The notes beneath the pieces were generated by a model, which was not told the DNA's origin, made no database searches, and saw only the letters and a program-made list of their open reading frames with translations. Shown piece by piece: positions 35,832-50,117 of a DNA stretch of 64,000 nucleotides. A program made the translations under genes and the position numbers. The DNA lies in assembly GCF_000378765.1 (NCBI RefSeq), contig NZ_KB905343.1, positions 4,914 through 68,913 on the forward strand, given 5' to 3'. The first letter of the stretch is position 1. Each line of letters opens with the position of its first letter. The DNA comes from Psychroflexus tropicus DSM 15496 (lineage in GTDB: Bacteria > Bacteroidota > Bacteroidia > Flavobacteriales > Flavobacteriaceae).

Positions 35832-36276
35832 ACTGAAATCGAACTTGAAGTTGAAGTCGAACTCAGAAATTTAGTAGTAAATCGGATACTATGAATTATG
35901 ATTTAAGTGATCGATTAGAAAATTTTGCTGCTAATATTATTTTACTTTACGATAAGAAACCTTCAAGTTATGCAGGCGACTATCTAGCTAAACAACTTAT
36001 AAGACCATTGTGCTCATCAGCATTAAATTATGGTGAAGTCCTTGGAGCTCAATCTGAGAAAGATAAACTATTCAAATTGAGTATTTGTTTAAAAGAACTT
36101 AGAGAGTGTTTGCGAAATCTAAATATTCAAATGAAAGCAGGGTTGTTTGAAAATGAAAAATTGGAAACTTTAAAAGGTGAGAATGATTAGTTAATTAGAA
36201 TAATTGTAACTCGAATTAAAAATATTAAGAAGTTATAATGAAGTTTCGATTTCAATTTCTACTTCAGTTTCAATAA
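35832..36276 (+). mobile_element. Candidate IVS-like cassette 1: four-helix-bundle gene between inverted arms
   Basis: The left arm (35832-35863) and reverse complement of the right arm (36240-36276) share a degenerate 6-nt unit close to TGAAAT/TGAAGT and match at about 22 of 30 positions. They enclose the small gene at 35891. The cassette fills the paaA-paaB gap exactly, from directly after the paaA stop to 17 nt before the paaB ATG. No transposase or target duplication was seen. Confidence 0.55.
35891..36190 (+). CDS. Four-helix-bundle (23S rRNA IVP-like) protein, truncated C-terminus
   Basis: 99 aa. The pattern SDRLENFAANIILLYDK, then QLIRPLCSSALNYGEV and LKELRECLRNL, matches the family of small helical proteins encoded by 23S rRNA intervening sequences and by genes inserted elsewhere. 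Family members are about 115-125 aa. The TAG at 36188 looks premature. The same frame continues for 15 more codons (LIRIIVTRIKNIKKL) to a TAA at 36236-36238, with similarity to the last helix of the other copies, ending just before the right inverted arm. No link to phenylacetate metabolism is suggested. Confidence 0.75.
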   Translation: MNYDLSDRLENFAANIILLYDKKPSSYAGDYLAKQLIRPLCSSALNYGEVLGAQSEKDKLFKLSICLKELRECLRNLNIQMKAGLFENEKLETLKGEND

Positions 36277-36292
36277 CTAAGAATATTAAAAT

Positions 36293-36583
36293 ATGAAAAA
36301 CAAGAAAAACTGGCCACTCTGGGAAGTGTTTGTAAGAAGTAAAAATGGTTTAGAACATCGTCACTTTGGGAGTTTACACGCTCCGGATGCTGATATGGCG
36401 CTAAAAAACGCCAGAGATGTATACACCCGAAGAAGTGAAGGGGTAAGTATTTGGGTGGTAGAGTCTAAGAATATCAAAGCTTCCAATCCAGATGATAATG
36501 GGGAAATGTTTGAGCCCGCGGCCGATAAAGCTTATCGTCATCCTACATTTTACGAGCTGCCAGACGATATCGAGCACATGTAG
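36293..36583 (+). CDS. paaB: Phenylacetyl-CoA epoxidase subunit PaaB
   Basis: Small structural subunit of the PaaABC(D)E complex, 96 aa, the usual length. Conserved WPLWEVFVRSKNGLEHRHFGSLHAPDAD-type start and SIWVVES core. It follows the four-helix-bundle cassette and precedes paaC. Confidence 0.95.
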   Translation: MKNKKNWPLWEVFVRSKNGLEHRHFGSLHAPDADMALKNARDVYTRRSEGVSIWVVESKNIKASNPDDNGEMFEPAADKAYRHPTFYELPDDIEHM

Positions 36584-36621
36584 CAAATTAGACCTTTTTG
36601 TTCCCTAAAAGACAATTCAAA

Positions 36622-37377
36622 ATGACAAATGAAAATTTAATTGAATACATCTACGGCATCGCCGATAACTCCCTGATTTTAGGTCAGCGGATTTCAGAAC
36701 TTTGTGGACACGGTCCCACTCTGGAGACTGATATTGCGATGACCAACATCGCTTTGGACTTGTTAGGTCAAACGAGAAGCTATTATCAGTATGTAGCTGA
36801 ATTGTCCAAATCTGATATTACCGAAGACGATGTGGCGTTTTTGAGAACTGAGCGAGAATACAAAAATGTACTGCTAGTCGAGCAGCCTAATACAGATTTT
36901 GCTTATGTCATCACCAGACAATATTTTTTTGACGTCTTTCATTTTATGTTGCTCAAAGAATTGGAAAATTCAAAAAATGTCAACTTCCAAGCGATCGCCA
37001 AAAAGAGTTTAAAGGAAGTCTCTTACCATAAACGCTTTTCTGGGGATTGGCTCAAGCGTCTTGGAGATGGGACTGAAGAAAGTAAAAATAAAGCTCAAAA
37101 GGCAGTTAATGATTTGTGGGTATATACCAACGAATTATTTCAAATGACCTCTAACGATAAAATAATAGCAGAGGCTGGATACGGTGTCAACACTGAAGAT
37201 TTGAAAGCCGAGTATTATAACGCTATTAAAGCATTACTTAAAGAAGCTACTTTGGATATCCCTGAGGTAGAATACTTCCAAAAAGGAGGAAAGGATGGAA
37301 TTCATACTGAACATATGGGTTATATTTTGTCCGATATGCAATATATGCAACGCACCTATCCGGACATGAAATGGTAA
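36622..37377 (+). CDS. paaC: Phenylacetyl-CoA epoxidase subunit PaaC
   Basis: Ferritin-like partner of PaaA that scaffolds the complex but lacks its own complete iron site. I start at the ATG at 36622 (MTNENLIEYIYGIADNS, 251 aa), which fits the family. The frame opens 8 codons earlier at 36598, directly after paaB. Typical features are ISELCGHGPTLETDIAMTNIALDLLGQ and KEVSYHKRFSGDW. Confidence 0.94.
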   Translation: MTNENLIEYIYGIADNSLILGQRISELCGHGPTLETDIAMTNIALDLLGQTRSYYQYVAELSKSDITEDDVAFLRTEREYKNVLLVEQPNTDFAYVITRQYFFDVFHFMLLKELENSKNVNFQAIAKKSLKEVSYHKRFSGDWLKRLGDGTEESKNKAQKAVNDLWVYTNELFQMTSNDKIIAEAGYGVNTEDLKAEYYNAIKALLKEATLDIPEVEYFQKGGKDGIHTEHMGYILSDMQYMQRTYPDMKW

Positions 37378-37425
37378 ATCTCAGACATTAGAGTTTAGAT
37401 CATAGATTTTAGAATCTAAATCCAA

Positions 37426-37456
37426 AATTTTTAATTAATAATTAAAAATTCTTTTT
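37426..37456 (+). terminator. Terminator-like hairpin inside the paaC-paaD gap
   Basis: Eleven perfect pairs AATTTTTAATT/AATTAAAAATT with a 3-nt loop are followed by CTTTTTA, 6 nt before the paaD ATG. Because it is all A/T it may be weak. A second inverted repeat TTTAGAT/ATCTAAA lies just upstream (about 37394-37421). Confidence 0.45.
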
Positions 37457-37461
37457 ATCAC

Positions 37462-37962
37462 ATGACTGATCAAGCAGACATAGCTACAGAACTTTACGAT
37501 ATTTTAAAATCGGTTCCCGATCCGGAAATCCCTGTGTTGTCCATCATCGACCTGGGGGTGGTTCGCTCAGCTAAACTTCTTGAAAATAAGGTTGCGAAAG
37601 TAGATATCACCCCAACTTACAGTGGATGTCCCGCTATGGATGTGATTGGTGATGATATTAAAACAGAGCTTCAAAAACACGGCTATACACCTCAAGTTAA
37701 ACTTATACTTTCTCCGGCCTGGACTACAGACTGGATGACAGAAGAAGGTAAACAAGCCCTTAAAGAATACGGTATTGCCCCGCCCATGGATGCGACATCA
37801 GATAAGGATGCCCTGCTAGGTAATAAGCGTGTAATTCCTTGTCCACAATGCGATTCCAAAAATACAAGACTCGTGAGTCAGTTCGCTTCTACAGCTTGCA
37901 AAGCCATGTTTAAGTGTGAAGATTGTGAGGAAACCTTCGATTACTTTAAATGTTTAATTTAA
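37462..37962 (+). CDS. paaD: PaaD, phenylacetyl-CoA epoxidase assembly protein
   Basis: 166 aa. The N-terminal MIP18/DUF59 domain (about 8-100) has DPEIPVLSIIDLGVV and TPTYSGCPAMDVI with its Cys. A C-terminal zinc-ribbon-like part has CPQC, later CKAMFKCEDC and a final C. DUF59 proteins act in iron-sulphur or metal centre assembly, and PaaD is needed for an active epoxidase. Confidence 0.95.
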   Translation: MTDQADIATELYDILKSVPDPEIPVLSIIDLGVVRSAKLLENKVAKVDITPTYSGCPAMDVIGDDIKTELQKHGYTPQVKLILSPAWTTDWMTEEGKQALKEYGIAPPMDATSDKDALLGNKRVIPCPQCDSKNTRLVSQFASTACKAMFKCEDCEETFDYFKCLI

Positions 37963-37971
37963 TAAGCCTTT

Positions 37972-38075
37972 GGCGGTTGCCCCTCACCATTACATTGGTG
38001 AATGGCCGGGCTTTCGGCAGTCGCTTTCCCGTTAAAAAACGGGAAGAGCTTCAACATATACCTCTATCCCTAACC
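37972..38075 (-). repeat. Flavobacterial-type structured intergenic repeat, copy A
   Basis: GC-richer than its surroundings and full of hairpins (CACCA/TGGTG, TCCCGTT/AACGGGA). On the minus strand it begins GGTTAGGGATAGAGG and contains GAAGCTC, GCGACT and AAAGCCCGG, motifs shared with the elements at 41765 and 52261. An 83-codon frame crossing it is not credible. Confidence 0.6.
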
Positions 38076-38213
38076 GGGGCTCGTCCCAAAAGTTCAATGA
38101 TTAAAATTTTCATTAGGCTTATGTCAAGATGGATTCTATTGACTCAATTTCCAAAGGGTTCACAAACCAATTTCGTAACTTTTCCATCTAAAAATCACTA
38201 AAACTCTAAATTT

Positions 38214-38996
38214 ATGGATACCAGTATATTACTCAATATTCAAGATCAAGTGGCCTACATCACATTCAACAGGCCCAACAAATTCAACAGTTTTAATCGG
38301 GAAATGGCCTTTTTGCTTCAGAAAACCTTAGATGATTGCATTCGCAACGACGAGGTGAGAGCGATTGTATTAACCGGAGAGGGAAAGGCCTTTTGCGCCG
38401 GTCAGGATATTCAGGAAATCACCGATCCGGATCAACATCCGGGATTTAAACAAATACTCGACGATCATTACAATCCTATCATTACCAGAATCAGAAACGT
38501 AGAAAAACCAGTTGTTGCTGCAGTTAATGGTGTAGCGGCCGGTGCAGGTGCTAATATCGCTTTAGCCTGCGATATCGTGGTTGCTCACGAACAGGCCAGC
38601 TTTATACAGGCCTTTTCTAAAATCGGATTGATACCCGATTCTGCTGGGACTTTCTTTTTGCCTAGACTTGTAGGGTTTCAAAGAGCTTCAGCCTTAGCCA
38701 TGCTTGGTGATAAAGTAGGTGCTGTAGAGGCAGAGCGCATGGGGATGATTTATAAGTACTTTTCTCCCGAGACGTACGAGGACGAAGTAAAAACAATGGC
38801 AGAAAAACTCGCTAAAATGCCTACCAAAGCGCTGGCTTACACTAAGAAGGCCTTAAACAAATCTTTCAACAATTCACTGGAAGAGCAGTTGGCTCTAGAA
38901 TCGGAGTACCAAATCGCCTCTGCTTCCACTGAAGATTATGAAGAAGGCGTCAGTGCCTTTATGGAAAAGAGAGAAGCGAAGTTTAAAGGCAAATAA
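38214..38996 (+). CDS. paaG: PaaG-type enoyl-CoA hydratase/isomerase
   Basis: 260 aa crotonase. It is expected to isomerise 1,2-epoxyphenylacetyl-CoA to oxepin-CoA. The oxyanion-hole segments are GEGKAFCAGQDIQEI and NGVAAGAGANIALACD. The catalytic region SKIGLIPDSAGTFFLPR has the Asp typical of PaaG-type isomerases where hydratases carry a Glu. It sits in the expected place between paaD and paaH. Confidence 0.9.
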   Translation: MDTSILLNIQDQVAYITFNRPNKFNSFNREMAFLLQKTLDDCIRNDEVRAIVLTGEGKAFCAGQDIQEITDPDQHPGFKQILDDHYNPIITRIRNVEKPVVAAVNGVAAGAGANIALACDIVVAHEQASFIQAFSKIGLIPDSAGTFFLPRLVGFQRASALAMLGDKVGAVEAERMGMIYKYFSPETYEDEVKTMAEKLAKMPTKALAYTKKALNKSFNNSLEEQLALESEYQIASASTEDYEEGVSAFMEKREAKFKGK

Positions 38997-39003
38997 ATAA
39001 ATA

Positions 39004-39467
39004 ATTTCAAAATGCAAATTTGTTATTTATCATTTCAAATTAGAGATTAGCAATGACAGCTTCAGAACTTGAAAATAGATTAATAGATTTTGCTGTAGCT
39101 TGTATTAAAATTGCAAGCAAAGCGAATAAATCTTTTGCTACAGAGCATTTGAATAGTCAATTGATTAGATCATCCACAAGTATTGCTCTTAACTATTCTG
39201 AAGCTCTTGGAGGTTCTTCATTCAGAGACTACATTTATTAAATGCAGATTTGTTTAAAAGAACTTAAAGAATCCAAAACCAATTTACGTATCCAATGTAG
39301 ATCTAATTTTTATGAGGATGATGAATTAATCCAGACGTTAATCAAGGAGGTTGAGGAACTCATTAAGATTTTTTCAAAAAGCATAGCAACTTCGAAAAAG
39401 AAAAATGGATTGAAGTGAGCCTGTTCTTCTTAGTTAAGTCAAAAATTTGAAATAAGAATTTTGAAAT
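39004..39467 (+). mobile_element. Candidate IVS-like cassette 2, decayed
   Basis: The left side has ATTTCAAAAT (39004-39013) and ATTTCAAATT (39032-39041). The right side has the complements AATTTGAAAT (39444-39453) and ATTTTGAAAT (39458-39467). They enclose a four-helix-bundle pseudogene. It fills the paaG-paaH gap together with a degraded tandem copy of its 3' end (39512-39691). Confidence 0.55.
39053..39418 (+). pseudogene. Four-helix-bundle (IVP-like) gene split by an in-frame stop
   Basis: The frame 39053-39241 encodes 62 aa (TASELENRLIDFAVACIKIA, then SSTSIALNYSEALGG) and ends at TAA (39239-39241). In the same frame 39242-39418 encodes 58 aa beginning MQICLKELKESKTNLR, the normal continuation of the family. 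Together they give about 120 aa, full family length. A single base change can explain the stop, so this looks like a nonsense pseudogene. The ATG right after the stop could in principle permit a restart. Confidence 0.8.
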
Positions 39468-39691
39468 GATGATTATAAAATTAATGAACATAGCAATTTT
39501 GACACTTTAAAGTAGATCTGAATCCAATGAGGATAATCATTAAATTCAGGCTTTTGATTGATAAAGCAGAGGAATTTATCAAGATTTTCCGAAGAGTATT
39601 GCAACCTCGAAAAAGCAAACGGATTGAAATAAGTTTATTTAAGCCTTAAAATTTGAAATAAGAATTTTGAAATGATAAATATAAAATATAT
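39297..39691 (+). repeat. Diverged tandem duplication of cassette 2 3' end and paaH leader
   Basis: Segment 39297-39500 and segment 39512-39710 can be aligned along their length. Shared landmarks are GTAGATCT, ATGAGGATRATSA, ATYAAGATTTT, TCGAAAAAG, GGATTGAA, then AAATTTGAAATAAGAATTTTGAAATGAT. The alignment runs on into the first codons of paaH (ATGATTACAGCAAT against ATGAACATAGCAAT). The first copy is the pseudogene end; the second has lost its reading frame. Confidence 0.75.
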
Positions 39692-40864
39692 ATGATTACA
39701 GCAATAATAGGAAGCGGAACTATGGGAAGCGGTATTGCGCAGGTTGCTGCCACCGCTGGATGCCAGGTGAAGCTCTACGATACCAAAACAGAAGCACTGG
39801 ATAAAGCCGAAAGCGCTTTAGAGAAGATATTACGTCGACTCATCGAAAAAGGGCGCATAGACGAAAAAGAAAAACAAAGGATACAGTCTAATATTAGTTA
39901 TGTAGAAAGCTTGAAAGACCTCTCCGACGCCCACTTGACCATCGAAGCCATAGTAGAAAACCTGGAAGTCAAACAAAAAGTCTTTAGAGAACTGGAAAGC
40001 TATCAAAGCAAAGAGGCGATCATTGCCAGTAATACGTCCTCTTTGTCTATTGCCTCTATAGCTTCAGCTCTAGAACAACCTGAGCGCTGTATTGGGGTTC
40101 ACTTTTTCAATCCGGCTCCGCTAATGCCCTTGGTGGAGATTGTACCCGCAGTACAGACCTCAGAAGAGGTTTTTGAAAAAGTATTTTCCACGATTAAAGA
40201 TTGGAAAAAAGTGCCTGTTAAAGCGCAGGATACACCAGGCTTCATTGTAAATCGAGTCGCACGCCCGTTTTATGGTGAAGCGCTGAGAGTTTATGAAGAA
40301 CGCTTTGCAGGAGTGCCTGAAGGCGAAGCTGGATTTGCCACGATTGATTGGGCCATGAAAGAGTTTGGTGGGTTTAAAATGGGGCCTTTTCAGTTGATGG
40401 ATTTTATTGGTAATGATGTGAATTATACCGTCACTGAAACCGTTTTTGAAGCCTTCTATTACGACCCACGTTATAAACCTTCCTTTACACAAAAACGCTT
40501 TGCAGAAGCAGGCTATTTAGGCCGAAAGTCAGGCAAAGGCTTTTATGATTACATTGAAGGCACTAAGAAAGTGGCCCCTCTAAAAGATCAGAAAATGGGA
40601 CAGAAAATCTTTGATCGGGTCCTGGTGATGTTGATCAATGAAGCTGCTGATGCTTTGTTTCTGAACATCGCCACCGCTAAAGATATTGATTTGGCTATGA
40701 CCAAGGGAGTGAATTATCCTAAAGGTCTCTTAGAATGGGCCAACGAAAAAGGAATTAGCTGGTGTGTTGAGCAGATGGATCAGCTTTATGATACTTACCG
40801 TGAAGATCGGTATAGGTGTAGTCCAATACTAAGGAAGATGATGAGAGAAGGTAGTAGATTTTAG
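39692..40864 (+). CDS. paaH: 3-hydroxyacyl-CoA dehydrogenase PaaH
   Basis: Oxidises 3-hydroxyadipyl-CoA with NAD+. 390 aa. The N-terminal Rossmann motif is IGSGTMGSGIAQVAA (residues 5-19), with catalytic-region HFFNPAPLMPLVEIV. The C-terminal domain includes GRKSGKGFYDY and a second dimerisation segment. The TAG stop (40862-40864) lies inside the left arm of the next four-helix-bundle cassette. Confidence 0.93.
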   Translation: MITAIIGSGTMGSGIAQVAATAGCQVKLYDTKTEALDKAESALEKILRRLIEKGRIDEKEKQRIQSNISYVESLKDLSDAHLTIEAIVENLEVKQKVFRELESYQSKEAIIASNTSSLSIASIASALEQPERCIGVHFFNPAPLMPLVEIVPAVQTSEEVFEKVFSTIKDWKKVPVKAQDTPGFIVNRVARPFYGEALRVYEERFAGVPEGEAGFATIDWAMKEFGGFKMGPFQLMDFIGNDVNYTVTETVFEAFYYDPRYKPSFTQKRFAEAGYLGRKSGKGFYDYIEGTKKVAPLKDQKMGQKIFDRVLVMLINEAADALFLNIATAKDIDLAMTKGVNYPKGLLEWANEKGISWCVEQMDQLYDTYREDRYRCSPILRKMMREGSRF

Positions 40865-41347
40865 GCCTTAGGTCTTAAGAAATGGGTGTTAGAGATTAGG
40901 AAAAAATAGCTAAGAAATGAAAAAGTCTAAGTTTCATTTTAAGTTCGAAGATTTGAAAGTTTATCAAAAAGCGATGAGCTTTGGTGAAATTATTCATGAA
41001 CAAACTCAACATTTCCCTAAAGAGGAGCGATTTGAACTGACTTCACAATTTAAAAGGGCTAGTGATTCTATTGCTTTGAATATTGCAGAAGGTTCTGCTG
41101 GAACCGACAAGCAATTCCATAATTACTTGGGTAATGCATATTATAGTTTACACGAATGTGTCTCTTGTAGTTCAAAAGCTTTTAACAGAAATTACCTTAG
41201 TCGAGAAGAAAATGAAAAAAACAGAGAGCACTTAGTTGAACTGGCAAAAATGATTAGTAGCCTACGTGTATTAATTTCTAAACAAATTAAAAATGGTCAA
41301 TGATAAAAAAAATCTAGAACCCATAGCCTACCACCTAATACCTAAAA
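40859..41347 (+). mobile_element. Candidate IVS-like cassette 3: intact four-helix-bundle gene
   Basis: The left arm (40859-40892) and the reverse complement of the right arm (41314-41347) are both 34 nt and match at 25 positions without gaps. Shared blocks are TTTTAGG, TTAGGT, ATGGGT and TAG. The left arm covers the paaH stop codon; the right arm ends 2 nt before my preferred paaI ATG. So the cassette spans the paaH-paaI gap exactly. Confidence 0.65.
40917..41303 (+). CDS. Four-helix-bundle (23S rRNA IVP-like) protein, intact
   Basis: 128 aa. The conserved FEDLKVYQKAMSFGEII start, FPKEERFELTSQFKRASDSIALNIAEG and YYSLHECVSC are the classic signature of the 23S rRNA intervening-sequence protein / four-helix-bundle family. 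It is the only one of the three copies here without a premature stop. No enzymatic role is known for the family; related proteins bind nucleic acid in diversity-generating retroelements. Confidence 0.88.
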   Translation: MKKSKFHFKFEDLKVYQKAMSFGEIIHEQTQHFPKEERFELTSQFKRASDSIALNIAEGSAGTDKQFHNYLGNAYYSLHECVSCSSKAFNRNYLSREENEKNREHLVELAKMISSLRVLISKQIKNGQ

Positions 41348-41349
41348 GG

Positions 41350-41739
41350 ATGCTCTCCCAAGATCCCTTCAGCACCTGGCTGGGGATTGAAATTTTAGAG
41401 GTGAGTCTTGGGAAGTGTAAGGTAGGTATGACTATAAGACCTGAAATGCTCAATTCTATGCAGAAAGCTCACGGTGGGATTTCTTATGCCTTGGCAGATA
41501 CGGCATTTGGTTTTGCAGCGAATACTTATGGTAAATATGCAGTATCCATAGAGACCTCAATCAATCATATTGAAGCTTTAGAAGTCAACGATTACATTAC
41601 CGCAGAATCTAAAGTGGATGTGACTAAAAACAGACTAGGATTTCACTACGTAGAAGTCAAACGAGGAGATGAAGTTGTAGCGCTTTTTAAAGGCGTAGTG
41701 TTTAGGACTTCTAAGAAATGGAAATTAAATGGGAATTAA
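41350..41739 (+). CDS. paaI: PaaI-type hotdog thioesterase
   Basis: Acyl-CoA thioesterase that relieves CoA trapping during phenylacetate breakdown. I start at the ATG at 41350 (MLSQDPFSTWLGIEILEV, 129 aa). The frame is open back to 41293, but the extra codons coincide with the right arm of the preceding inverted repeat and encode nothing conserved. The hotdog core has MQKAHGGISYALADTAFGFA with the catalytic-region Asp, then SIETSINH. Confidence 0.87.
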   Translation: MLSQDPFSTWLGIEILEVSLGKCKVGMTIRPEMLNSMQKAHGGISYALADTAFGFAANTYGKYAVSIETSINHIEALEVNDYITAESKVDVTKNRLGFHYVEVKRGDEVVALFKGVVFRTSKKWKLNGN

Positions 41740-41764
41740 ATTTTATAAATTGAAAACGAATTTG

Positions 41765-41911
41765 CGTTAGGGATTGTAGTGGAAAGCCCGAAAGGCTAGT
41801 GATGAGCTGAAACAGCTTTGAGCATAGCGACTAAAAGAAGCTCATGCTCTATGCTTGTGAAAGCCAACACTAGACTAAGTACTTGAAGCGAAGAGCCCGT
41901 CAACGCCCAAC
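41765..41911 (+). repeat. Flavobacterial-type structured intergenic repeat, copy B
   Basis: Begins GCGTTAGGGATTGTAGTGG and contains AAAGCCCG, AGCATAG/CTATGCT arms, GCGACTAAAAGAAGCTC and a terminal GAGCCCGTCAACGCCC. It shares its opening and inner motifs with copy A (opposite strand) and copy C. It lies between paaI and paaJ and encodes no protein. Confidence 0.65.
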
Positions 41912-41931
41912 AAAATAACAAACTATAAGAT

Positions 41932-43140: not shown

Positions 43141-43160
43141 TTCTCACATTAATAAATACA

Positions 43161-43183
43161 AAATATAAATATGTTTTATATTT
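43161..43183. promoter_or_regulatory. Palindrome before the toxin-antitoxin genes (possible operator)
   Basis: AAATATAAA (43161-43169) and TTTATATTT (43175-43183) are perfect 9-bp arms around 5 nt, 15 nt before the antitoxin ATG. Ribbon-helix-helix antitoxins usually repress their own operon from such sites. Confidence 0.5.
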
Positions 43184-43198
43184 ACTAAAAATAAAGAC

Positions 43199-43444
43199 AT
43201 GACAACGTTTACCTCTTCACTTCCAGATGATTTGCTAGATAAATTAGCCAAAGCTTCTTCCAAATTAAAAATGCCTAAGAATAAGATTATAGAAAGAGCA
43301 TTGGACATTTATTTGGAACAACTCGATAGGGCAGCTTATGAAAAATCCTATAAAAGAATGGCTAAAGATCCAGATATGATTGCCATGGCTGAAGAAGGAA
43401 TGGCAGATTATTTTGAGCTCTTAAAGGAATTTGACCAAAAATGA
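43199..43444 (+). CDS. Ribbon-helix-helix antitoxin
   Basis: 81 aa. The N-terminal TTFTSSLPDDLLDKLAKASSK and PKNKIIERALDIYLEQL read as a CopG/RHH DNA-binding fold. The acidic C-terminal half (MAEEGMADYFELLKEFDQ) would wrap the toxin. It overlaps the toxin ATG by 4 nt (ATGA), a typical coupled pair. Confidence 0.88.
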   Translation: MTTFTSSLPDDLLDKLAKASSKLKMPKNKIIERALDIYLEQLDRAAYEKSYKRMAKDPDMIAMAEEGMADYFELLKEFDQK

Positions 43445-43773
43445 AAAAAGGAGAAATTTGGGAAGTATTCCTCGATCCTACCATTGGAAGCGAACAAAGT
43501 GGACGACGTCCTGCGGTAGTTATTTCTGGTGATCTAGCTAATAAACATTTAAATACAATTATAATTTGCCCTTTAACTTCAAAACTTAAGAATTATCACG
43601 GTAATTTAATTGTTAGCCCAAATTCAAAAAATGGTTTGAAAAGAAAATCTGAGGTAATGTCAGTACATGTAAGATCTATTTCCAAAGAAAGGTTCAAGAA
43701 AAAACTAGGTCACTTCAATCATAATGAAATGGAAGTTGTTATCGAAAACCTTGAGAAAATTATTAAATATTGA
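43441..43773 (+). CDS. MazF/PemK-type mRNA interferase toxin
   Basis: 110 aa. Family hallmarks are MKKGEIWEVFLDPTIGSEQSGRRPAVVIS at the start, IIICPLTSKLK, and VHVRSISKERF near the end. The Arg in the first loop and the Thr/Ser in PLTS lie where the RNase active site is placed in this family. Paired with the upstream antitoxin. The pair interrupts paaJ-paaZ and is probably an acquired module. Confidence 0.92.
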   Translation: MKKGEIWEVFLDPTIGSEQSGRRPAVVISGDLANKHLNTIIICPLTSKLKNYHGNLIVSPNSKNGLKRKSEVMSVHVRSISKERFKKKLGHFNHNEMEVVIENLEKIIKY

Positions 43774-43789
43774 TTTTAAATATTAAAAC

Positions 43790-46300
43790 ATGCAAACCAC
43801 ACAAAGTTATATAAAAGGACAATGGACACAAGGAAAAGGAGAGGGTCATCCGATTTATGATTCCATCACTGGAGAACAGTTCACCAATGTGAATGTCGAA
43901 GGATTCGATATTCCTGAAGTTCTAGCTTATGGAAGAGAAAAAGGAGAGGCCTTGCGACAAATGACCTTTCAGGAGCGCGGAAATATGCTGAAGTCTTTAG
44001 CCTTTTACCTTCAAAAAAGAAAAAAAGCATTTTACGAATTGAGCTACCGCACTGGGGCTACCAAAATGGACTCCTGGTTTGATATAGACGGGGGATTTGG
44101 TAATCTGTTTGCCAATGCCTCATTAAGAAAATTGTTTCCCAATCAGCCGTTTGATGTAGAAGGGGATCCTATAGATTTATCCAGAGGCGGACGCTTTATG
44201 GCTCATCATATTTTGGTGCCTAAAGAAGGGGTGGCCGTTCATATCAATGCGTTTAACTTTCCGGTGTGGGGAATGCTGGAAAAATGTGCTGTCAACTGGA
44301 TGGCCGGAGTGCCGGCTGTGGTTTTGCCAGCTCCTCAATCTGCTTACTTAACTGAAGCCGTGGTTAAAGAAATTATTGCCTCAGGTATTTTACCTGAAGG
44401 GGCTCTACAATTAATTTCTGGTACTGAAAAAACAATCCTGGAGAGTGTAGAGTCTCAGGATATTGTGACGTTTACCGGTTCTGCAGCTACGGGGAGATTA
44501 TTAAAGAATCACCCAAGATTACTAGAAGAATCAGTACCATTTACTATGGAGGCAGATTCTCTAAACGCCTGTATTCTTGGAGAAGACGCCGTCCCAGGAA
44601 CTCCAGAGTTTGATCTGTTCATCAGAGAAGTTCGAAATGAAATGACGGTGAAATGCGGACAGAAATGTACAGCGATTCGTCGAGCTATTGTACCAGAATC
44701 CCTGATTGAGGACGTTCAGATTGCCTTAGGTAAAGCTTTAGATAAGGTTACTTTGGGTGATCCTAGATTGAAAGAGGTAAGAATGGGAAGCTTAATCGAC
44801 AAAAAACAGGTAGAAGCCGTTAAAAACGCAGTCAATGAAATTTCTAAAACAGCTGAAGTAGTTTACGGGGGCTTTAATTCGGCTGAGACTATTAACGCCG
44901 ATTTTGAAAAAGGAGCTTTCATCAAACCAATTTTGATGAGAGAGGATCAGCCTTTTAAAAATGAAGCCGCTCACATTACCGAAGCTTTCGGTCCGGTGAG
45001 TACATTAATGCCTTATAAAAGTCTGGAAGAAGCGATTCAACTTTCAAAAAAAGGAAAGGGTTCGTTGGTGAGTTCTATTTTTACCAACGATGATGCTATT
45101 GCTCGTGATTATACCCTTCAGGCGGCTTCTCATCACGGTCGGATCATGTCAATAAACAGAGAATCGGCCAAGCAAAGCACAGGACATGGTTCGCCGCTAC
45201 CAAACCTTATTCACGGTGGCCCAGGTCGCGCCGGAGGAGGTGAAGAGATGGGAGGTAAGCGAGGCATTAAACACTTTATGCAACGCTGTGCCATCCAGGG
45301 CAGTCCAACAACTTTAACTGAAATCACAGGAATTTATCAGCCTAAAGCAGATTATAAAGAGGCTGAAAGGCATCCATTTGCTTACCATTGGGAGGATATT
45401 CAGCCCGGGATGTCACTTAAAACCCACAACCGAACATTAACCGATACCGATATCATCAACTTTGGTAACCTAACCTGGGATCATTTTTATGCGCATACCG
45501 ATATCACGTCTTTGGAAGGAAGCATATTTGAACAGCGTACTGCTCACGGCTATTTCATTATTTCTGCTGCTGCTGGATTATTCGTCTATCCCAATAAAGG
45601 CCCGGTTGCTGCGAATTACGGTTTAGAAGAGATTAGATTCTTAAGACCGCTGTATCATAACGATACGATTAATGTGCGTTTGACCTGTAAAGAAAAAGTG
45701 GATCGCGACCCCAAAGGAAAAGAATTGCCTAGTGGTATTGTAAAGTGGTACGTGGAGGTTTTCGATGTCGAAGCCGTGGAAGAAGAGGATAAATTGGTGG
45801 CTATAGCTACGATATTGACGATGGTTCAGAAAAAACAGGAGACTTTTCACGAAGTAGATAAAGGGTTCATTGAAAATAAATTGAAATCGCTTTCAGCAGA
45901 TGATAAAGCTAAGTGGGGTAAAATGACACCACAGCATATGCTTGAGCACTTGGAAATGACTCTTCGTATCGCTACTGGCGAAATTTCAAACTTTAAGGTG
46001 GTCACTCTAGAAGAGCATATTGAGAAAGTACAGGAAACTCTCTATACTTATGAGAAGATGCCTCGAGGCTACAAGTTTCCTTTAATTAAGGAGGATGAGT
46101 TAGAAGCGCTGAAGCATGAAAATATCGAAGAGGCGAAAAAGTCTCTACTTCAGGCTTATGAAGCTTATGAAGCTTTCTTTAGAGAACATCCAGAGGTAAC
46201 GACCAAAAATGCGGTATTTGGAGAACTCAACGCTTTTGAATGGAAACTTTTAAATCGAAAACATTTCAATCATCACTTTGAACAGTTTGGATTGATTTAG
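43790..46300 (+). CDS. paaZ: PaaZ ring-opening enzyme with an extra C-terminal DUF1569-like domain
   Basis: Bifunctional oxepin-CoA hydrolase / semialdehyde dehydrogenase. The N-terminal aldehyde dehydrogenase (about 1-515) has the base E254 and catalytic Cys in VKCGQKCTA (C293). The MaoC-like hydratase (about 530-680) has WDHFYAHTD around D564. The usual PaaZ stops near 680 aa, but this one is 836 aa. Residues about 695-836 contain KMTPQHMLEHL and end WKLLNRKHFNHHFEQFGLI, which looks like a DUF1569/DinB-type helical domain with several His. There is no break or internal stop, so it is a true fusion. Confidence 0.92.
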   Translation: MQTTQSYIKGQWTQGKGEGHPIYDSITGEQFTNVNVEGFDIPEVLAYGREKGEALRQMTFQERGNMLKSLAFYLQKRKKAFYELSYRTGATKMDSWFDIDGGFGNLFANASLRKLFPNQPFDVEGDPIDLSRGGRFMAHHILVPKEGVAVHINAFNFPVWGMLEKCAVNWMAGVPAVVLPAPQSAYLTEAVVKEIIASGILPEGALQLISGTEKTILESVESQDIVTFTGSAATGRLLKNHPRLLEESVPFTMEADSLNACILGEDAVPGTPEFDLFIREVRNEMTVKCGQKCTAIRRAIVPESLIEDVQIALGKALDKVTLGDPRLKEVRMGSLIDKKQVEAVKNAVNEISKTAEVVYGGFNSAETINADFEKGAFIKPILMREDQPFKNEAAHITEAFGPVSTLMPYKSLEEAIQLSKKGKGSLVSSIFTNDDAIARDYTLQAASHHGRIMSINRESAKQSTGHGSPLPNLIHGGPGRAGGGEEMGGKRGIKHFMQRCAIQGSPTTLTEITGIYQPKADYKEAERHPFAYHWEDIQPGMSLKTHNRTLTDTDIINFGNLTWDHFYAHTDITSLEGSIFEQRTAHGYFIISAAAGLFVYPNKGPVAANYGLEEIRFLRPLYHNDTINVRLTCKEKVDRDPKGKELPSGIVKWYVEVFDVEAVEEEDKLVAIATILTMVQKKQETFHEVDKGFIENKLKSLSADDKAKWGKMTPQHMLEHLEMTLRIATGEISNFKVVTLEEHIEKVQETLYTYEKMPRGYKFPLIKEDELEALKHENIEEAKKSLLQAYEAYEAFFREHPEVTTKNAVFGELNAFEWKLLNRKHFNHHFEQFGLI

Positions 46301-46388
46301 TATAAACTAAAGCTAATTCAATTGTAAAGCATACGAACAATCATTAGTTTTGAAGATAATTCGAAAACGATTGAGAAAACTATAAACC

Positions 46389-47141
46389 ATGACGAAACCT
46401 TACGTTAAAAAAGACATACAAGACAAAATTGCAACCATAGAATTTTTTCATCCTGCTCACAATTCATTACCAAGTGATATACTGGCTCAACTTGCAGAAA
46501 CCATTACAGAAGTTGGGAGTAATGATGAAGTATTAGTTATTATTTTAAAGTCAGGAGGTGACCGAACGTTTTGCGCGGGTGCAAGTTTTAAAGAGTTGAT
46601 TTCTATAGAAGACGAAAAAACCGGGGAACAATTTTTTAGTGGCTTTGCCAATGTCATCAATGCGATGCGAAAATGTCCAAAGTTTATTATTGGTAGAGTA
46701 CAGGGTAAAACCGTAGGAGGGGGAGTAGGTTTAGCTTCCTCTATGGATTATTGCATGGCGACTAAGTATGCTTCTATCAAATTGAGCGAATTGAATCTAG
46801 GTATTGGTCCTTTTGTTGTAGGACCTGCTGTGGAGCGTAAGCTAGGGGTGAGTGGTATGTCACAAATCGCTATAGATGCCAATACTTTTTATACGGCTGA
46901 ATGGGCTAAAGACAAAGGTTTATTTGCTAATGTGTACGACACCACTGAGGACTTAGATATCGCTGTATCAGAGTTTGCTAAAAATTTATGTGAATATAAC
47001 CCCGAAGCGGTTAAACATATGAAACAAATGTTCTGGAGAGGCACAGAAGATTGGGATGAACTGTTACAAGAACGTGCTAAAATAAGTGGAAAATTAGTCT
47101 TGAGTTCTTTTACCAAAGAGAAGCTGAAGAGGTTTAAGTAA
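46389..47141 (+). CDS. Enoyl-CoA hydratase/isomerase family protein (PaaF candidate)
   Basis: 250 aa crotonase-fold enzyme. Oxyanion-hole segments are GGDRTFCAGASFKEL and VQGKTVGGGVGLASS. The position usually holding the hydratase Glu falls in IKLSELNLGIGP. The natural role here is 2,3-dehydroadipyl-CoA hydratase (PaaF), since no other candidate lies in the cluster. Its sequence is not typical enough to be certain. A perfect hairpin follows the stop. Confidence 0.85.
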   Translation: MTKPYVKKDIQDKIATIEFFHPAHNSLPSDILAQLAETITEVGSNDEVLVIILKSGGDRTFCAGASFKELISIEDEKTGEQFFSGFANVINAMRKCPKFIIGRVQGKTVGGGVGLASSMDYCMATKYASIKLSELNLGIGPFVVGPAVERKLGVSGMSQIAIDANTFYTAEWAKDKGLFANVYDTTEDLDIAVSEFAKNLCEYNPEAVKHMKQMFWRGTEDWDELLQERAKISGKLVLSSFTKEKLKRFK

Positions 47142-47144
47142 TAA

Positions 47145-47164
47145 ACATCCGTGAAAACGGATGT
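47145..47164. terminator. Hairpin ACATCCGT/ACGGATGT after the hydratase
   Basis: Eight perfect pairs with a GAAA loop directly after the stop at 47141. No T run follows. It is the left palindrome beside the GIY-YIG gene. Confidence 0.55.
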
Positions 47165-47204
47165 CTTAATGCACAAAGAATTATGCGATAAATCAAACCT
47201 TTAT

Positions 47205-47522
47205 ATGTCTTATTATGTTTACGTAATGACGAATAAATCTAATTCGTTAATATATATTGGAGTAACTGATAATTTAGACGAGCGAGTGAAAGAGCACAAA
47301 TTGAAAGTCCATCCGAACTCTTTCACTTCACGCTATAATTGTAATAAACTAGTCTATTTTGAAGAGTTTGAGAACGATTCAGATGCAAGCCTAAGAGAAA
47401 GAAGATTTAAAAAATGGAATAGGGCTTGGAAAGTTGATTTAATTGAAGAAATGAATCCAAATTGGTCTGATTTAACTGATAATTGGAATTTAGATTTATC
47501 TAACACTCGGCTCTCAAAATAG
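47205..47522 (+). CDS. GIY-YIG nuclease-domain protein
   Basis: 105 aa single-domain protein. MSYYVYVMTNKSNSLIYIGVT gives the GIY-YIG-like tyrosines (YVYVM and YIGVT). HKLKVHPNSFTSRYNCNKLVYFEEF and LRERRFKKWNR complete the UPF0213/YhbQ-type domain. I use the ATG at 47205; a GTG at 47151 would start inside a hairpin. Such small GIY-YIG genes are scattered through Bacteroidota genomes as insert-like single genes, and here it interrupts the paa cluster. Confidence 0.88.
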   Translation: MSYYVYVMTNKSNSLIYIGVTDNLDERVKEHKLKVHPNSFTSRYNCNKLVYFEEFENDSDASLRERRFKKWNRAWKVDLIEEMNPNWSDLTDNWNLDLSNTRLSK

Positions 47523-47531
47523 AATGAATTA

Positions 47532-47561
47532 GGCGGAAAGAGATTTCCGCAAAAGCGGAAA
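47532..47561. repeat. Overlapping small palindromes after the GIY-YIG gene
   Basis: GCGGAAA/TTTCCGC and TTCCGC/GCGGAA overlap, so the RNA could fold in two alternative hairpins. The core CCGCAAAAGCGG resembles the CCGTGAAAACGG palindrome on the other side of the gene (47149-47160). Confidence 0.55.
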
Positions 47562-47565
47562 TAAA

Positions 47566-48165
47566 ATGATCTATAAATTCAAAAATCATATACCAGTAAT
47601 CCACCCCTCCAGCTTTGTGCACCCCCAAGCCGCTATTACTGGCAATGTGATCATCGGGAAAGATTGCTACATCGGTCCAGGGGCCGCCATTCGAGGTGAT
47701 TGGGGGGAGATCATTTTAGAAGATGGTGTGAATGTCCAGGAAAATTGCACGGTACATATGTTCCCAGGGAAAAGCATTACTCTAAAAACCGGAGCACACG
47801 TAGGCCACGGGGCTATTATTCATGGAGCCAATCTTGGAGAAAATTGTTTGATTGGTATGAATGCGGTGATCATGGATGATGCTGACATCGGAGCTGAGTC
47901 GATTATCGGTGCTTTAGCCTTTGTAAAAGCTGAAACAAAGATTCCAAAACGAAGTTTAGTTGTAGGAAATCCGGCTAAAATCATCAAAGAAGTATCAGAT
48001 GAAATGATCGCCTGGAAAACAGCGGGAACTCGTTTATATCAGCAGTTACCAGCCGACTGTCATGAGAGTCTGCAAGTAGTTGAACCCTTAAGAGAAATAC
48101 CCAAAAACAGGCCTGTGCAAGAAGATTTTTATAAAACATTGCAGGAATTTAAGAGCGGTAAATAA
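47566..48165 (+). CDS. paaY: PaaY-like hexapeptide-repeat protein
   Basis: 199 aa left-handed beta-helix protein of the gamma-carbonic anhydrase/PaaY family. Hexapeptide repeats run through about residues 20-130 (VHPQAAITGNVIIGKDCYIGPG). His ligands appear in TVHMFPG and VGHGAIIHGAN. PaaY is reported as a thioesterase aiding phenylacetate catabolism. Its place within the cluster supports this name over a bare carbonic anhydrase. Confidence 0.88.
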   Translation: MIYKFKNHIPVIHPSSFVHPQAAITGNVIIGKDCYIGPGAAIRGDWGEIILEDGVNVQENCTVHMFPGKSITLKTGAHVGHGAIIHGANLGENCLIGMNAVIMDDADIGAESIIGALAFVKAETKIPKRSLVVGNPAKIIKEVSDEMIAWKTAGTRLYQQLPADCHESLQVVEPLREIPKNRPVQEDFYKTLQEFKSGK

Positions 48166-48208
48166 TTAAAATGTAAAGGATCCAAATTAGAAGTAAGAAT
48201 CAAAAATT

Positions 48209-49534
48209 ATGAGTAATAAAACCACAGAATTTAAACTTCCAAAGATGGGAGAAAGCATCACAGAAGGTACCATTCTGAATTGGGTAGTGAATGTTGGGGA
48301 TAGCTTTCAGGAAGGAGATATTTTGGTAGAAGTGGGAACTGATAAGGTCGATAATGAAGTTCCAGCACCTTCTGCTGGAACTTTAAAAGAAATTAAATTT
48401 GAAACTAATGATGTCGTAAAGGTCGGTGAGGTGATAGCTATTCTCGAAGCTTCAAATCAGGGAGACTCTTCATCAAAGGAAAAGAAAGTCTCTACCGAAG
48501 ATAAAGAGCCAAAGGCAAAGTCAGAAAAACCCAGTCCTCAACAACTCAAGAAAAAACATAAAGAACCAACTAAGGCACCGGCGTCAACGGCATGGAAGTC
48601 AAGTTCTAGAGACAATCACTTTTATTCGCCCCTGGTTGAAAAAATAGCTAAAGACTATCATATTAGTTACGAAGAGTTAGCTAGAATACCGGCTACTGGA
48701 GTTCAAGATAGACTTAAAAAATCAGACATATTTAAATACATCGAACAGGGGAGGCCTGCTCAATTTGCCCAGCCTGAGCAAGTGGATACTCCTACAGGAT
48801 TTCAGGTACCTGATTTAAAATTTGACAAAGGTAAAGGTAAGCCTGTAGAGATGGATAGGATGCGTCAAATGATAGCCGATCATATGGTGTTTTCCAAACA
48901 TACCTCTCCACATGTTACGGCTTATGTGGAAGCTGACATGACCAACCTGGTCAATTGGAGAAATGAAAATAAGAGTAAATTCAAAGAAGAGACTGGTGAG
49001 AAACTCACATTTACCCCTCTGTTTATTCAAGCGGTGACTAAAGCTATTCAGGATTTCCCCATGATCAATTCATCATTGGATGGTAATCAAATCATCGTAA
49101 AAGACGATATCAATATTGGTATGGCTACTGCCTTACCAAGTGGTAATCTGATTGTACCGGTAGTAAAAAATGCAGACAAAAAAAACTTAGAAGAATTAGC
49201 TGGAGAAGTAAATGCTCTTGTCGCTAAGGCTAGAGATAACCAATTAAGCAGCGATGAAACCAAAGGCAGCACTTTTACCATATCTAATGTGGGGACCTTT
49301 GGCAGCTTGATGGGAACGCCAATTATTAATCAGCCGGAAGCAGCTATTTTAGCCACTGGAATTATCAAAAAACGTGCTGAGGTGATTGAATATGAAGATG
49401 GTGATAAAATCGAAATTAGACCGATGATGTACCTGTCCCTTTCTTTTGATCATCGTATTGTTGATGGGTATTTGGCTGGAAGTTTTTTAAGAAGAATTGC
49501 GGATTACTTTGAAAATTTGAATACCGACAATTAG
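48209..49534 (+). CDS. 2-oxoacid dehydrogenase E2 (lipoyl acyltransferase)
   Basis: 441 aa. A lipoyl domain (about 5-80) carries lipoyl-Lys K46 in VEVGTDKVDNEVPAP. A Lys/Pro-rich linker, an E1/E3-binding domain (about 132-170) and a catalytic domain (about 205-441) with FDHRIVDG follow. It belongs with the E1 gene at 50118 and is split from it by a GxxExxY gene. Substrate is probably a branched-chain 2-oxoacid, by resemblance to fused-E1 systems; no E3 gene is nearby. Confidence 0.92.
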   Translation: MSNKTTEFKLPKMGESITEGTILNWVVNVGDSFQEGDILVEVGTDKVDNEVPAPSAGTLKEIKFETNDVVKVGEVIAILEASNQGDSSSKEKKVSTEDKEPKAKSEKPSPQQLKKKHKEPTKAPASTAWKSSSRDNHFYSPLVEKIAKDYHISYEELARIPATGVQDRLKKSDIFKYIEQGRPAQFAQPEQVDTPTGFQVPDLKFDKGKGKPVEMDRMRQMIADHMVFSKHTSPHVTAYVEADMTNLVNWRNENKSKFKEETGEKLTFTPLFIQAVTKAIQDFPMINSSLDGNQIIVKDDINIGMATALPSGNLIVPVVKNADKKNLEELAGEVNALVAKARDNQLSSDETKGSTFTISNVGTFGSLMGTPIINQPEAAILATGIIKKRAEVIEYEDGDKIEIRPMMYLSLSFDHRIVDGYLAGSFLRRIADYFENLNTDN

Positions 49535-49630
49535 AAACACGACGTATCGAGACAGGACATAACTTAGAATGATGAGACGACATAACTTTAAGAAGTTGTT
49601 AATTCGGAGAATTCGAAATTGAAATCACTT

Positions 49631-50085
49631 AAAGGCGCTAGGCCGCAAAAAAGAATGTAAATTTAGAAGCAAATGGATGAGAATCAACTTTCAAAAGTTA
49701 TAGTAAATACAGCATATCAAATCCATAATAAGTTAGGTCCAGGTCTTCTTGAATCGGTTTATGAAGAAATTATGTATTTCGAACTTAGAAAGCAAAATTT
49801 AAATGTCGAGAGGCAAAAAACAATTCCTGTCATTTGGGATGATTTAAAAATGCAATTGGGTTTCAGGGCAGATATAATAGTAAACAATAAAGTAATTATC
49901 GAATTGAAATCTGTTGAAAATATCGCGCCTGTTCATCCAAAACAAGTATTGACTTACTTAAGATTAACAGAGCTAAAGTTAGGTTTACTTATCAATTTTA
50001 ATGAATCATTAATTAAGAACGGAATCACAAGAATCGTTAATAATTTATAAACATTTTGAACTTCGCGTCTTTGCGACTTTGCGAG
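49631..50085 (+). mobile_element. Candidate cassette: GxxExxY gene between octamer-repeat arms
   Basis: The left arm AAAGGCGCTAGGCCGCAAA (49631-49649) matches the reverse complement of the right arm (within 50061-50085, CTTCGCGT CTTTGCGA CTTTGCGA) at about 14 of 19 positions. The right arm is three near-perfect 8-nt repeats. The arms enclose only the GxxExxY gene. Confidence 0.5.
49673..50050 (+). CDS. GxxExxY protein
   Basis: 125 aa. The name-giving motif GLLESVYE is at about residues 23-30. The rest has a PD-(D/E)XK nuclease-like layout: ADIIVNNKVIIELKS with the D...E-x-K spacing, then HPKQVLTYLRLT and GLLINFN. Function is unproven; the fold suggests a nuclease-like role. Such genes are often found as isolated inserts, and here it separates E2 from E1. 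Confidence 0.9.
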   Translation: MDENQLSKVIVNTAYQIHNKLGPGLLESVYEEIMYFELRKQNLNVERQKTIPVIWDDLKMQLGFRADIIVNNKVIIELKSVENIAPVHPKQVLTYLRLTELKLGLLINFNESLIKNGITRIVNNL

Positions 50086-50117
50086 AGTTTTGACATAATT
50101 AAAAATATAAAATCATT

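Follow-up and report, generated by a model that had tools for sequence, protein, structure and literature searches.

Small IVP/S23 genes between matched word arms in operon gaps: a candidate cassette class seen from the paa cluster of Psychroflexus tropicus

Introduction

A 64,000-nt stretch of the Psychroflexus tropicus DSM 15496 genome (contig NZ_KB905343.1, positions 4,914 to 68,913 of the forward strand), here called the window, contains a cluster of genes whose presumptive names, paa as well as E1 and E2, follow the labels of an original prediction made for this DNA. Four small genes lie in gaps of this cluster, each listed as the sole open reading frame (ORF) between two co-directional cistrons. 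What are these genes, and what are the repeats at their borders? The original prediction regarded them as cassettes, each enclosed by an inverted repeat that would fold the ORF into a closed loop of the polycistronic transcript, and as messenger-RNA relatives of the intervening sequences (IVS) of 23S rRNA.

Three of the four genes match PF05635 (IVP/S23) and occupy the paaA-paaB, paaG-paaH and paaH-paaI-like gaps; as had been claimed, they share their family with the ORF of 23S IVS. Genes and arms together form a cassette family of operon gaps, protein-related to that ORF, and the prediction had caught a portion of a real phenomenon that extends further. The cassette class is real and common and, as far as our searches reach, undescribed: in the open-licence PubMed Central (PMC) literature, at the level of titles and abstract openings, IVP genes enclosed by paired heptamer arms were not seen to be described. 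We see about an even balance for the view that the IVP genes of the paa gaps, two of them degenerate or broken, belong to a widespread class of small cassettes with word-binding, end-acting arms. The family PF05635 takes its name from a location, 23S rRNA, in which we did not see any of the loci that we fetched.

The IVP genes of the paa gaps and their arms

The four small genes and their arms lie on the + strand. The gene at 40917-41303 is intact and reaches 100.8 bits against PF05635, whose cut-off is 33.8 bits; the translated ORFs at 35891-36190 (a short form) and 39053-39241 fall below it, with 31.6 and 28.7 bits. A whole-genome search returned the same three places with 34.6, 50.1 and 100.7 bits, the first two passing the cut-off once read through stops. 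The 35891 match (C2:40825-41118 in the own-genome search) contains a single TAG close to its end, and the middle gene (39053-39419) is broken by an in-frame TAA after 39241, its family match continuing to ~39373.

Arms were assessed as the best local match between the 120 nt upstream and the reverse complement of the 120 nt downstream, with p values from dinucleotide shuffles unless stated otherwise. Around the 35891 gene, the upstream arm (35813-35866, best-matching stretch 35813-35846, with 6-nt GAANTN-like units from ~35833 by eye) matches an inverted downstream arm at 36241-36278, in which a repeat finder marks an 18-nt core at 36245-36262 (score 17, p 0.005). The same score and p value were obtained for the 40917 gene, whose upstream arm at 40859-40893 carries TTAGGNN-like words and overlaps the paaH stop, and whose inverted downstream arm at 41313-41347 ends just 5' of the likely paaI start at 41350. 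The match is weak at the broken 39053 gene (38997-39044 with 39428-39476, score 18, p 0.035), where the repeat finder extends the inverted downstream arm over 39428-39483 and places a second copy at ~39649-39687. The flanks of the fourth gene, a GxxExxY gene (49622-49649 with 50062-50089), are on their own not above chance (score 10, p 0.83). Mononucleotide shuffles gave p 0.004, 0.004, 0.014 and 0.66 for the 35891, 40917, 39053 and 49673 genes, respectively, and a stricter repeat finder returned inverted pairs at the 35891 and 39053 genes only. The predicted enclosure in inverted repeats is thus clear at two of the three IVP genes, weak at the third and absent, as a signal above chance, at the GxxExxY gene. 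To us, too, the four arm sequences look mutually unrelated. The short periodic units that had been described are visible by eye, while no array in the window passes the threshold that detects 16 on the 342-kb contig C3 of the same genome, and we therefore take the window cassettes for worn copies.

The region 39340-39690 seems, by eye, to contain two copies (~39340-39483 and ~39560-39690) of a segment made up of the terminal part of the broken IVP gene and the arm downstream of it; the repeat finder detects both arm copies.

Matched arms in relatives and across phyla

Members of PF05635 are frequent, occurring in 26/27 genomes of the genus, 74/100 of the family and 157/198 of the phylum; a single genome can have as many as 16 matches. 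The best named match to the IVP alignment belongs to Aequorivita antarctica. The own genome has 12 matches, two of which are adjacent fragments, and inverted arms were found at p<0.05 in six of its 11 tested loci. We extended the arm test to a family set of 100 IVP loci (these 11, 29 returned and 60 taken down the match list), a cross-phylum set (the best 80 of at least 523 matches, many from metagenome bins whose phylum labels may be wrong; 79 in the dinucleotide test) and a genus set of 87 new loci; the fragment L012, the PemK locus L116 and the short locus L365 were excluded (L and C numbers denote our loci and contigs). Many loci are orthologs and hence not independent. Inverted arms at p<0.01 were found in 127/266 loci, namely 41/100 of the family, 45/79 of the cross-phylum and 41/87 of the genus set; at p<0.05, cross-phylum arms were significant in 64/80 loci by mononucleotide and 58/79 by dinucleotide shuffles. 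Direct matches at p<0.01 occur in 54/266 loci, 34 having both orientations and 17 a direct without an inverted match.

The flanks of homologous genes elsewhere, which the original prediction had proposed to compare with control gaps, carry more inverted signal than the flanks of PemK genes and of other small ORFs. None of 19 PemK loci has an inverted match at p<0.01 (one has a direct match at that level), and among 46 other small ORFs of contig C3 inverted arms reach p<0.01 in one and p<0.05 in three. When arms were exchanged between loci, the 100 family loci gave a mean of 16.3 for own arms vs 10.5 between loci, and the 19 PemK loci 9.3 vs 9.1; judged by this exchange, a stricter criterion than shuffling, 21/100 IVP and 0/19 PemK loci have p<0.01. 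Chance matching in A/T-rich gaps is excluded by these cross-locus, shuffle, PemK and small-ORF controls. The sole non-IVP small ORF of the 46 with inverted flanks at p<0.01 lies at C3:256405-256849.

Heptamer words and their period

Self-comparison of the flanks of IVP genes reveals repetition at offsets of 7, 14 and 21 nt both upstream and downstream, with a mean excess identity at 7 nt of 0.089 and 0.105, and this period is absent from the PemK flanks; it is a property of the class that the four copies of the window were too few to reveal. It recurs in the 56 Bacteroidota loci of the cross-phylum set (excess 0.10) and in its 24 pooled non-Bacteroidota loci (excess 0.14), the arms of which reach p<0.05 in 21/24 by mononucleotide shuffles; the record titles of these 24 name Verrucomicrobia, Acidobacteria, Clostridia, Chthonomonadales, Nitrospirae, Proteobacteria, Fibrobacter, Kiritimatiellaeota and candidate phyla. 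Some IVP cassettes have words of 8 nt. As judged by eye, a word is common to both arms of a locus, with the number of units and their variants differing between the sides. Several IVP genes of the own genome have plain arms; at one of them, eight GGTCTACT units stand upstream and about eleven GGTCAACT units downstream, the word being shared directly and not inverted. On cyanobacterial plasmids we read, also by eye, GGGAACA in Nostoc, GGTGACA/GGGAACA in Anabaena sp. 90 and AAAAGCT in Pseudanabaena. In a cluster of genus loci (L385, L387, L388, L389), an orthologous IVP cassette carries longer CTATGGTTACTATAG-like words, by eye in both orientations around the gene. A polarity of G-rich upstream and C-rich downstream flanks (81 and 77 of 100) was considered as a special mark and set aside, as PemK also has the upstream part (18/19).

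Four of the 16 arrays of C3 lie within 150 nt of the three IVP genes of that contig, a territory of ~0.6% of its length. A laxer threshold, applied to four sources of which two were chosen because they bear IVP genes, gave 56 arrays vs 14 in shuffled sequence, 15 of the 56 near IVP or PDDEXK genes. Heptamer arrays without an IVP gene were seen at L162 (C3:216941), L166 (C3:281877), L152 (C3:14214), L153 (C3:22875) and L171 (C1:145030 and 149002); one of them consists of ~180 nt of CACTAAT units. Such IVP-less arrays may represent solo arms or something independent.

Placement in operons and the question of RNA pairing

IVP genes follow the direction of their surroundings: both neighbours are co-directional in 95 of the 98 readable family loci and in 61 of the 72 readable cross-phylum loci, with both opposite in one locus of each set, the corresponding counts being 26/30 for PDDEXK_3 and 8/19 for PemK loci. 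Family-set medians are 51 nt from the upstream stop and 41 nt to the downstream start. Since they run in the same direction as the co-directional flanking cistrons, the cassettes are presumably expressed by read-through.

Such placement is what would be expected if the arms paired in the polycistronic transcript, looping out the ORF, and were cut by RNase III, as the original prediction had it; it suits dependence on read-through transcription equally well. The higher frequency of inverted than of direct arms also agrees with RNA pairing, as does the 23S IVS of Coxiella, with its RNase III-cleaved stem and the tandem heptamers in front of its S23p ORF, according to the passages on this element in PMC4990558. 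A stem kept as RNA should tolerate G-U pairs, and this is not what the arms show. Among opposed mismatches in the 166/267 loci with an arm score of at least 15, G/T (205) does not exceed A/C (331), nor does it in any of the three sets (59/87, 50/79 and 48/119 for G-U/A-C). Most of the tilt towards A/C is due to the A-rich sense strand, for the full mismatch table counts 377 A.A vs 150 T.T, and no preference for G-U is left. We accordingly rejected two candidates, selection for an RNA stem on the sense strand, for want of a G-U excess, and pairing of antisense or single-stranded DNA, proposed for the A-C excess (157 vs 285 over the three sets), which the mismatch table mostly assigns to sense-strand A-richness. 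Loci that share their word only directly likewise argue against pairing, and so does the absence of 23S sequence, none of seven typed 23S k-mers occurring in the 392 fetched loci, although a 23S gene could escape notice where the flanks are short. The window loci themselves lie between paa genes and not inside a 23S rRNA gene. Young arms could hide a G-U signal, so that a role in RNA could still exist; none of our observations requires one, and directly repeated arms speak against it. In sum, a cassette family of operon gaps is supported and the closed RNA loop as the purpose of its arms is not, given the missing G-U preference, the 17/266 direct-only loci and the differences in word, unit number and variants between the sides; we consider pairing and excision at the mRNA level unlikely.

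Gain, loss and spread of the cassettes

We surveyed the three gaps in the own genome, in congeners and in relatives up to the order (readable in 27/29 genomes for paaA-paaB, 21/30 for paaG-paaH and 19/30 for paaH-paaI). The filled and empty versions that the original prediction asked for exist at all three. The paaA-paaB gap contains an IVP gene in three genomes and measures at most 65 nt in twelve, several genomes having periodic arrays without an IVP match; the paaG-paaH gap contains one in ten (one judged by eye) and measures at most 34 nt in eight; and the paaH-paaI gap contains one in eight and measures at most 77 nt in eight, one case resembling a deletion remnant. As relatives have these gaps both filled and empty, the IVP genes are not fixed members of the paa cluster, and fixed membership is ruled out by the empty gaps. 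In different genomes one and the same gap may hold ORFs apparently of different lineages with different arms. Switching of words around a fixed ORF, considered for the paaG-paaH gap, was discarded, as the differing arms there accompany ORF lineages that appear different from their translations, without a tree.

Similar units also occur at unrelated sites. The genus set contains 149 pairs of similar ORFs without shared neighbours; 25 were inspected and are 69-79% identical in nucleotides, most of them sharing their word by eye. The paaA-paaB cassette of a congener (L398), for instance, links to cassettes (L318, L321, L322) that adjoin a gene which we take to be thiolase-like. Across differing contexts, as defined by a crude test, word sharing among 175 proteins rises with protein identity from a mean of 10.2 at 30-40% to 14.2 at 60-70% and 19.6 at or above 70%, the last bin being n=8 pairs from few loci.

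One Nostoc plasmid gap is empty in one relative, whereas two others have an IVP cassette there. The fourth plasmid compared (97.6% identical where aligned, over 80% of the query) carries at this place a repeat of ~120-150 nt, apparently gene-less, between GGGAACA-like words; by eye, such words stand on both sides in five of six copies of this repeat inspected. The gene-less repeat is dispersed on Nostocales plasmids (L404, L408-L412) with GGGAACA/TGTTCCC-like borders, and is possibly a non-autonomous partner of the IVP cassette. Between cas6 and cas4, plasmids of Anabaena sp. 90 and Pseudanabaena carry IVP genes with different flanking words, and a closely related Dolichospermum plasmid, 98.7% identical where aligned, has another insert at this site, with no annotated IVP gene (loci L400, 1495-1863, L407, 1107-1466, and L403). 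These gaps suggest that the link of IVP to clustered regularly interspaced short palindromic repeats (CRISPR) may be a lodger's.

By place, then, the element is not a 23S IVS, and it bears some marks of a transposon and not others: presence/absence polymorphism and the same unit at unrelated sites are found, and terminal repeats conserved throughout the family are not, the word differing by lineage and being common mainly to related proteins.

Selection and co-evolution of the arms

IVP genes are under purifying selection. Between orthologs (56 pairs, Nei-Gojobori), the ratio of non-synonymous to synonymous substitution rates (dN/dS) has a median of 0.087 and a maximum of 0.23, at a median dS of 1.14. 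In 95 same-context pairs, the match between the two arms of a locus is similar at every divergence, with means from 13.4 to 16.3, and with growing distance between orthologs, an arm comes to resemble its partner at the same locus more closely than it resembles the ortholog's arms. At 60-70% ORF identity, own arms score 14.2 vs 10.6 for swapped ones and are higher in 13/13 pairs; at 70-80% the values are 16.3 vs 13.7 (30 pairs vs 7), at 80-90% 14.6 vs 14.3 (14 pairs vs 16) and above 90% 13.4 vs 13.8 (1 vs 3).

Joint change of the two arms could also arise as a mutational by-product, with slippage lengthening the runs of units and template switching between inverted copies keeping the sides alike, no recognition being involved. 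The variable number of units, the within-locus co-evolution itself, the lack of a G-U signature and the arrays found away from IVP genes all fit such a process. It is opposed by the concentration of arrays at IVP genes on C3 and by the rarity of matched arms at other small genes; moreover, palindrome correction would hardly yield direct-only arms, and the 7-nt period is left unexplained. A purely mutational origin of the arms therefore appears to us quite improbable.

The IVP protein

Both a score above the PF05635 cut-off and a four-helix fold were found for the 40917 gene. The model of its protein (predicted local distance difference test, pLDDT, 95.9) matches XCC0516 (2gsc; template modelling (TM) score 0.86, E value 3e-7) and BT_0352 (2rld, TM 0.73). 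Avd, alone or in a ribonucleoprotein (4dwl, 8ub7), is a weaker match (TM ~0.75, probability 1.00, E 0.03-0.2). The Xanthomonas relative XCC0516 is described in the passages of PMC4990558 on its structure as a ring of five four-helix bundles, and it is on this source, not on a model of the window protein, that the ring state rests. A ring gripping nucleic acid and reading a repeated 7-nt word would be the simplest way that we see to connect the conservation of the protein with the iteration of the words and the co-evolution of the arms.

Such a ring might instead be an autoregulator, binding the upstream words in its own mRNA in a manner analogous to TRAP; the arms would then be operators of an operon-resident regulator and not mobile ends. 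The upstream arm is indeed close 5' of the start codon, the fold resembles that of Avd, itself a component of a ribonucleoprotein (8ub7), and the purifying selection on the gene fits this view. A leader site, however, needs no reversed copy on the far side, the gene comes and goes from its gaps, and a similar word and protein stand together at unrelated sites. We regard autoregulation as highly improbable.

A proposed word-reading cassette

The reading that we favour combines recognition with end-acting arms. A cassette consists of one IVP/S23 gene with an array of a degenerate 7-8-nt word on each side, the second side mostly inverted and the word lineage-specific, and cassettes come and go, the same gap in relatives being empty, filled by an apparent other lineage with another word, or left with arrays alone. 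The IVP ring would recognise its own word in nucleic acid, so that the arms would be iterated IVP binding sites, and both arms would have to follow the specificity of the protein. Recognition would explain why the sides share a word and not an exact copy, why they change jointly and why the same word stands with related proteins at unrelated sites. The arms would act as cassette ends and IVP as an end-binding or chaperone factor, cutting and joining being carried out by other enzymes. The anatomy of the cassettes, the period, matching, orientation and co-evolution of their arms, their gain and loss and the purifying selection are observations, to which we add binding, mobilisation and the exact ends by inference.

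More tentatively, and with the balance against it, we suggest that IVP cassettes may be a new class of mobile element, whose two ends are recognised through a 7-nt word by the protein ring, each subunit perhaps reading one unit, with word and protein co-evolving; because the two would evolve together, each lineage would have its own ends. The 23S IVS would then be a special case, as would many of the heptamer arrays that lack an explanation in cyanobacteria and Bacteroidetes and the reported link of IVP genes to CRISPR adaptation modules.

Several observations weigh against recognition and mobility. Inverted arms at p<0.01 are missing from 139/266 loci, 119/266 having neither an inverted nor a direct match, and five of the 11 loci of the own genome have p values of 0.05 or above. 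On C3, twelve of the 16 arrays are not close to an IVP gene, and arrays may thus be independent things. For orthologs with more than 80% ORF identity, the scores of own arms do not differ from those of swapped ones, some ortholog pairs of low identity may be separate insertions, and the tracking of protein identity by the word can be plain co-inheritance. Many cassettes stay put, as 687/15,099 protein pairs share their neighbourhood. At the filled and empty sites of Nostoc and of congeners, no target-site duplication or precise ends were found by eye, the ends being blurred, and the flank of the Nostoc plasmid gap is altered. No phage record was matched by one protein query, and we know of no catalytic motif in IVP.

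The tie to matched heptamer arms provides a first genomic handle on the function of IVP and suggests where some heptamer arrays that have been described without explanation come from. It is also a warning that a PF05635 gene met as a neighbour in an operon, such as a cas operon, may be there as a lodger and not as a working part.

The GxxExxY gene and other features of the window

The fourth small gene of the original prediction (49673-50050), situated between E2- and E1-like genes, belongs to PDDEXK_3 (PF13366, 140.7 bits). Upstream of it lies a possible decayed arm (49622-49649) and 3' of it a CGCGTCTTTGCGACTTTGCG stretch (50062-50089), a similar word being present at some other PDDEXK_3 genes (L133, L125, L148). 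Among 30 PDDEXK_3 family loci, 14 have inverted arms at p<0.01, the flanks being devoid of a 7-nt period. In four paaA-paaB gaps (L297, L299, L300, L301), CTTTGCGNCTTTGCG-like words, as at some GxxExxY flanks, stand beside heptamer arrays with no IVP match.

A lone GIY-YIG gene without an arm signal (47151-47522; score 9, p 0.58) lies between genes that we take to be enoyl-CoA hydratase-like and PaaY-like. A ribbon-helix-helix plus PemK/MazF toxin-antitoxin pair, another lodger of this cluster and likewise devoid of significant arms (43199-43773; p 0.12), is situated between thiolase-like and aldehyde dehydrogenase-like genes. The gaps 37960-38213 and 41740-41930 are probably non-coding stretches with stem-like words and match no Rfam family at gathering scores, at which the window yields a tRNA only.

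Comparison with known systems

The closest known system is the 23S IVS of Leptospira and Coxiella, which shares the family PF05635. In Coxiella, as given in the passages on it in PMC4990558, the element is 428 nt long, with an ORF between terminal inverted repeats and, before the ORF, tandem heptamers that vary in number by strain. Cassettes of the window type differ in lying in gaps between protein genes, several to a genome, with cassette-specific word arms that are sometimes direct and bear no sign of selection for RNA pairing. To Avd of the diversity-generating retroelements, which PF05635 is said to resemble in the relevant part of PMC10053308, the likeness is one of fold, by the model described above.

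Heptamer direct repeats are further known from cyanobacteria as short tandemly repeated repetitive (STRR) sequences. The TAACTGA heptamers of Beggiatoaceae, Cyanobacteria and Bacteroidetes are intergenic 7-nt tandem words, often just 5' of a start codon (PMC4679880). They are described as direct and of one word; paired arms around an IVP gene are not mentioned in the passages on them, and the terms 'helix bundle', '23S rRNA' and 'S23' do not occur in the main text of that paper (PMC4679880). For CRISPR adaptation, a figure legend spells out 23S rRNA IVP as one of the abbreviations used in a panel that shows newly found associations of adaptation modules (PMC10910872).

The cassettes resemble repetitive extragenic palindromes (REP/REPIN-RAYT) and miniature inverted-repeat transposable elements (MITE) in that repeats of gaps are tied to a small protein, with possible gene-less versions bearing the same word. 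RAYT, however, is a tyrosine-dependent transposase whose REP sequences are fixed, whereas IVP has, to our knowledge, no catalytic motif and its word changes between lineages.

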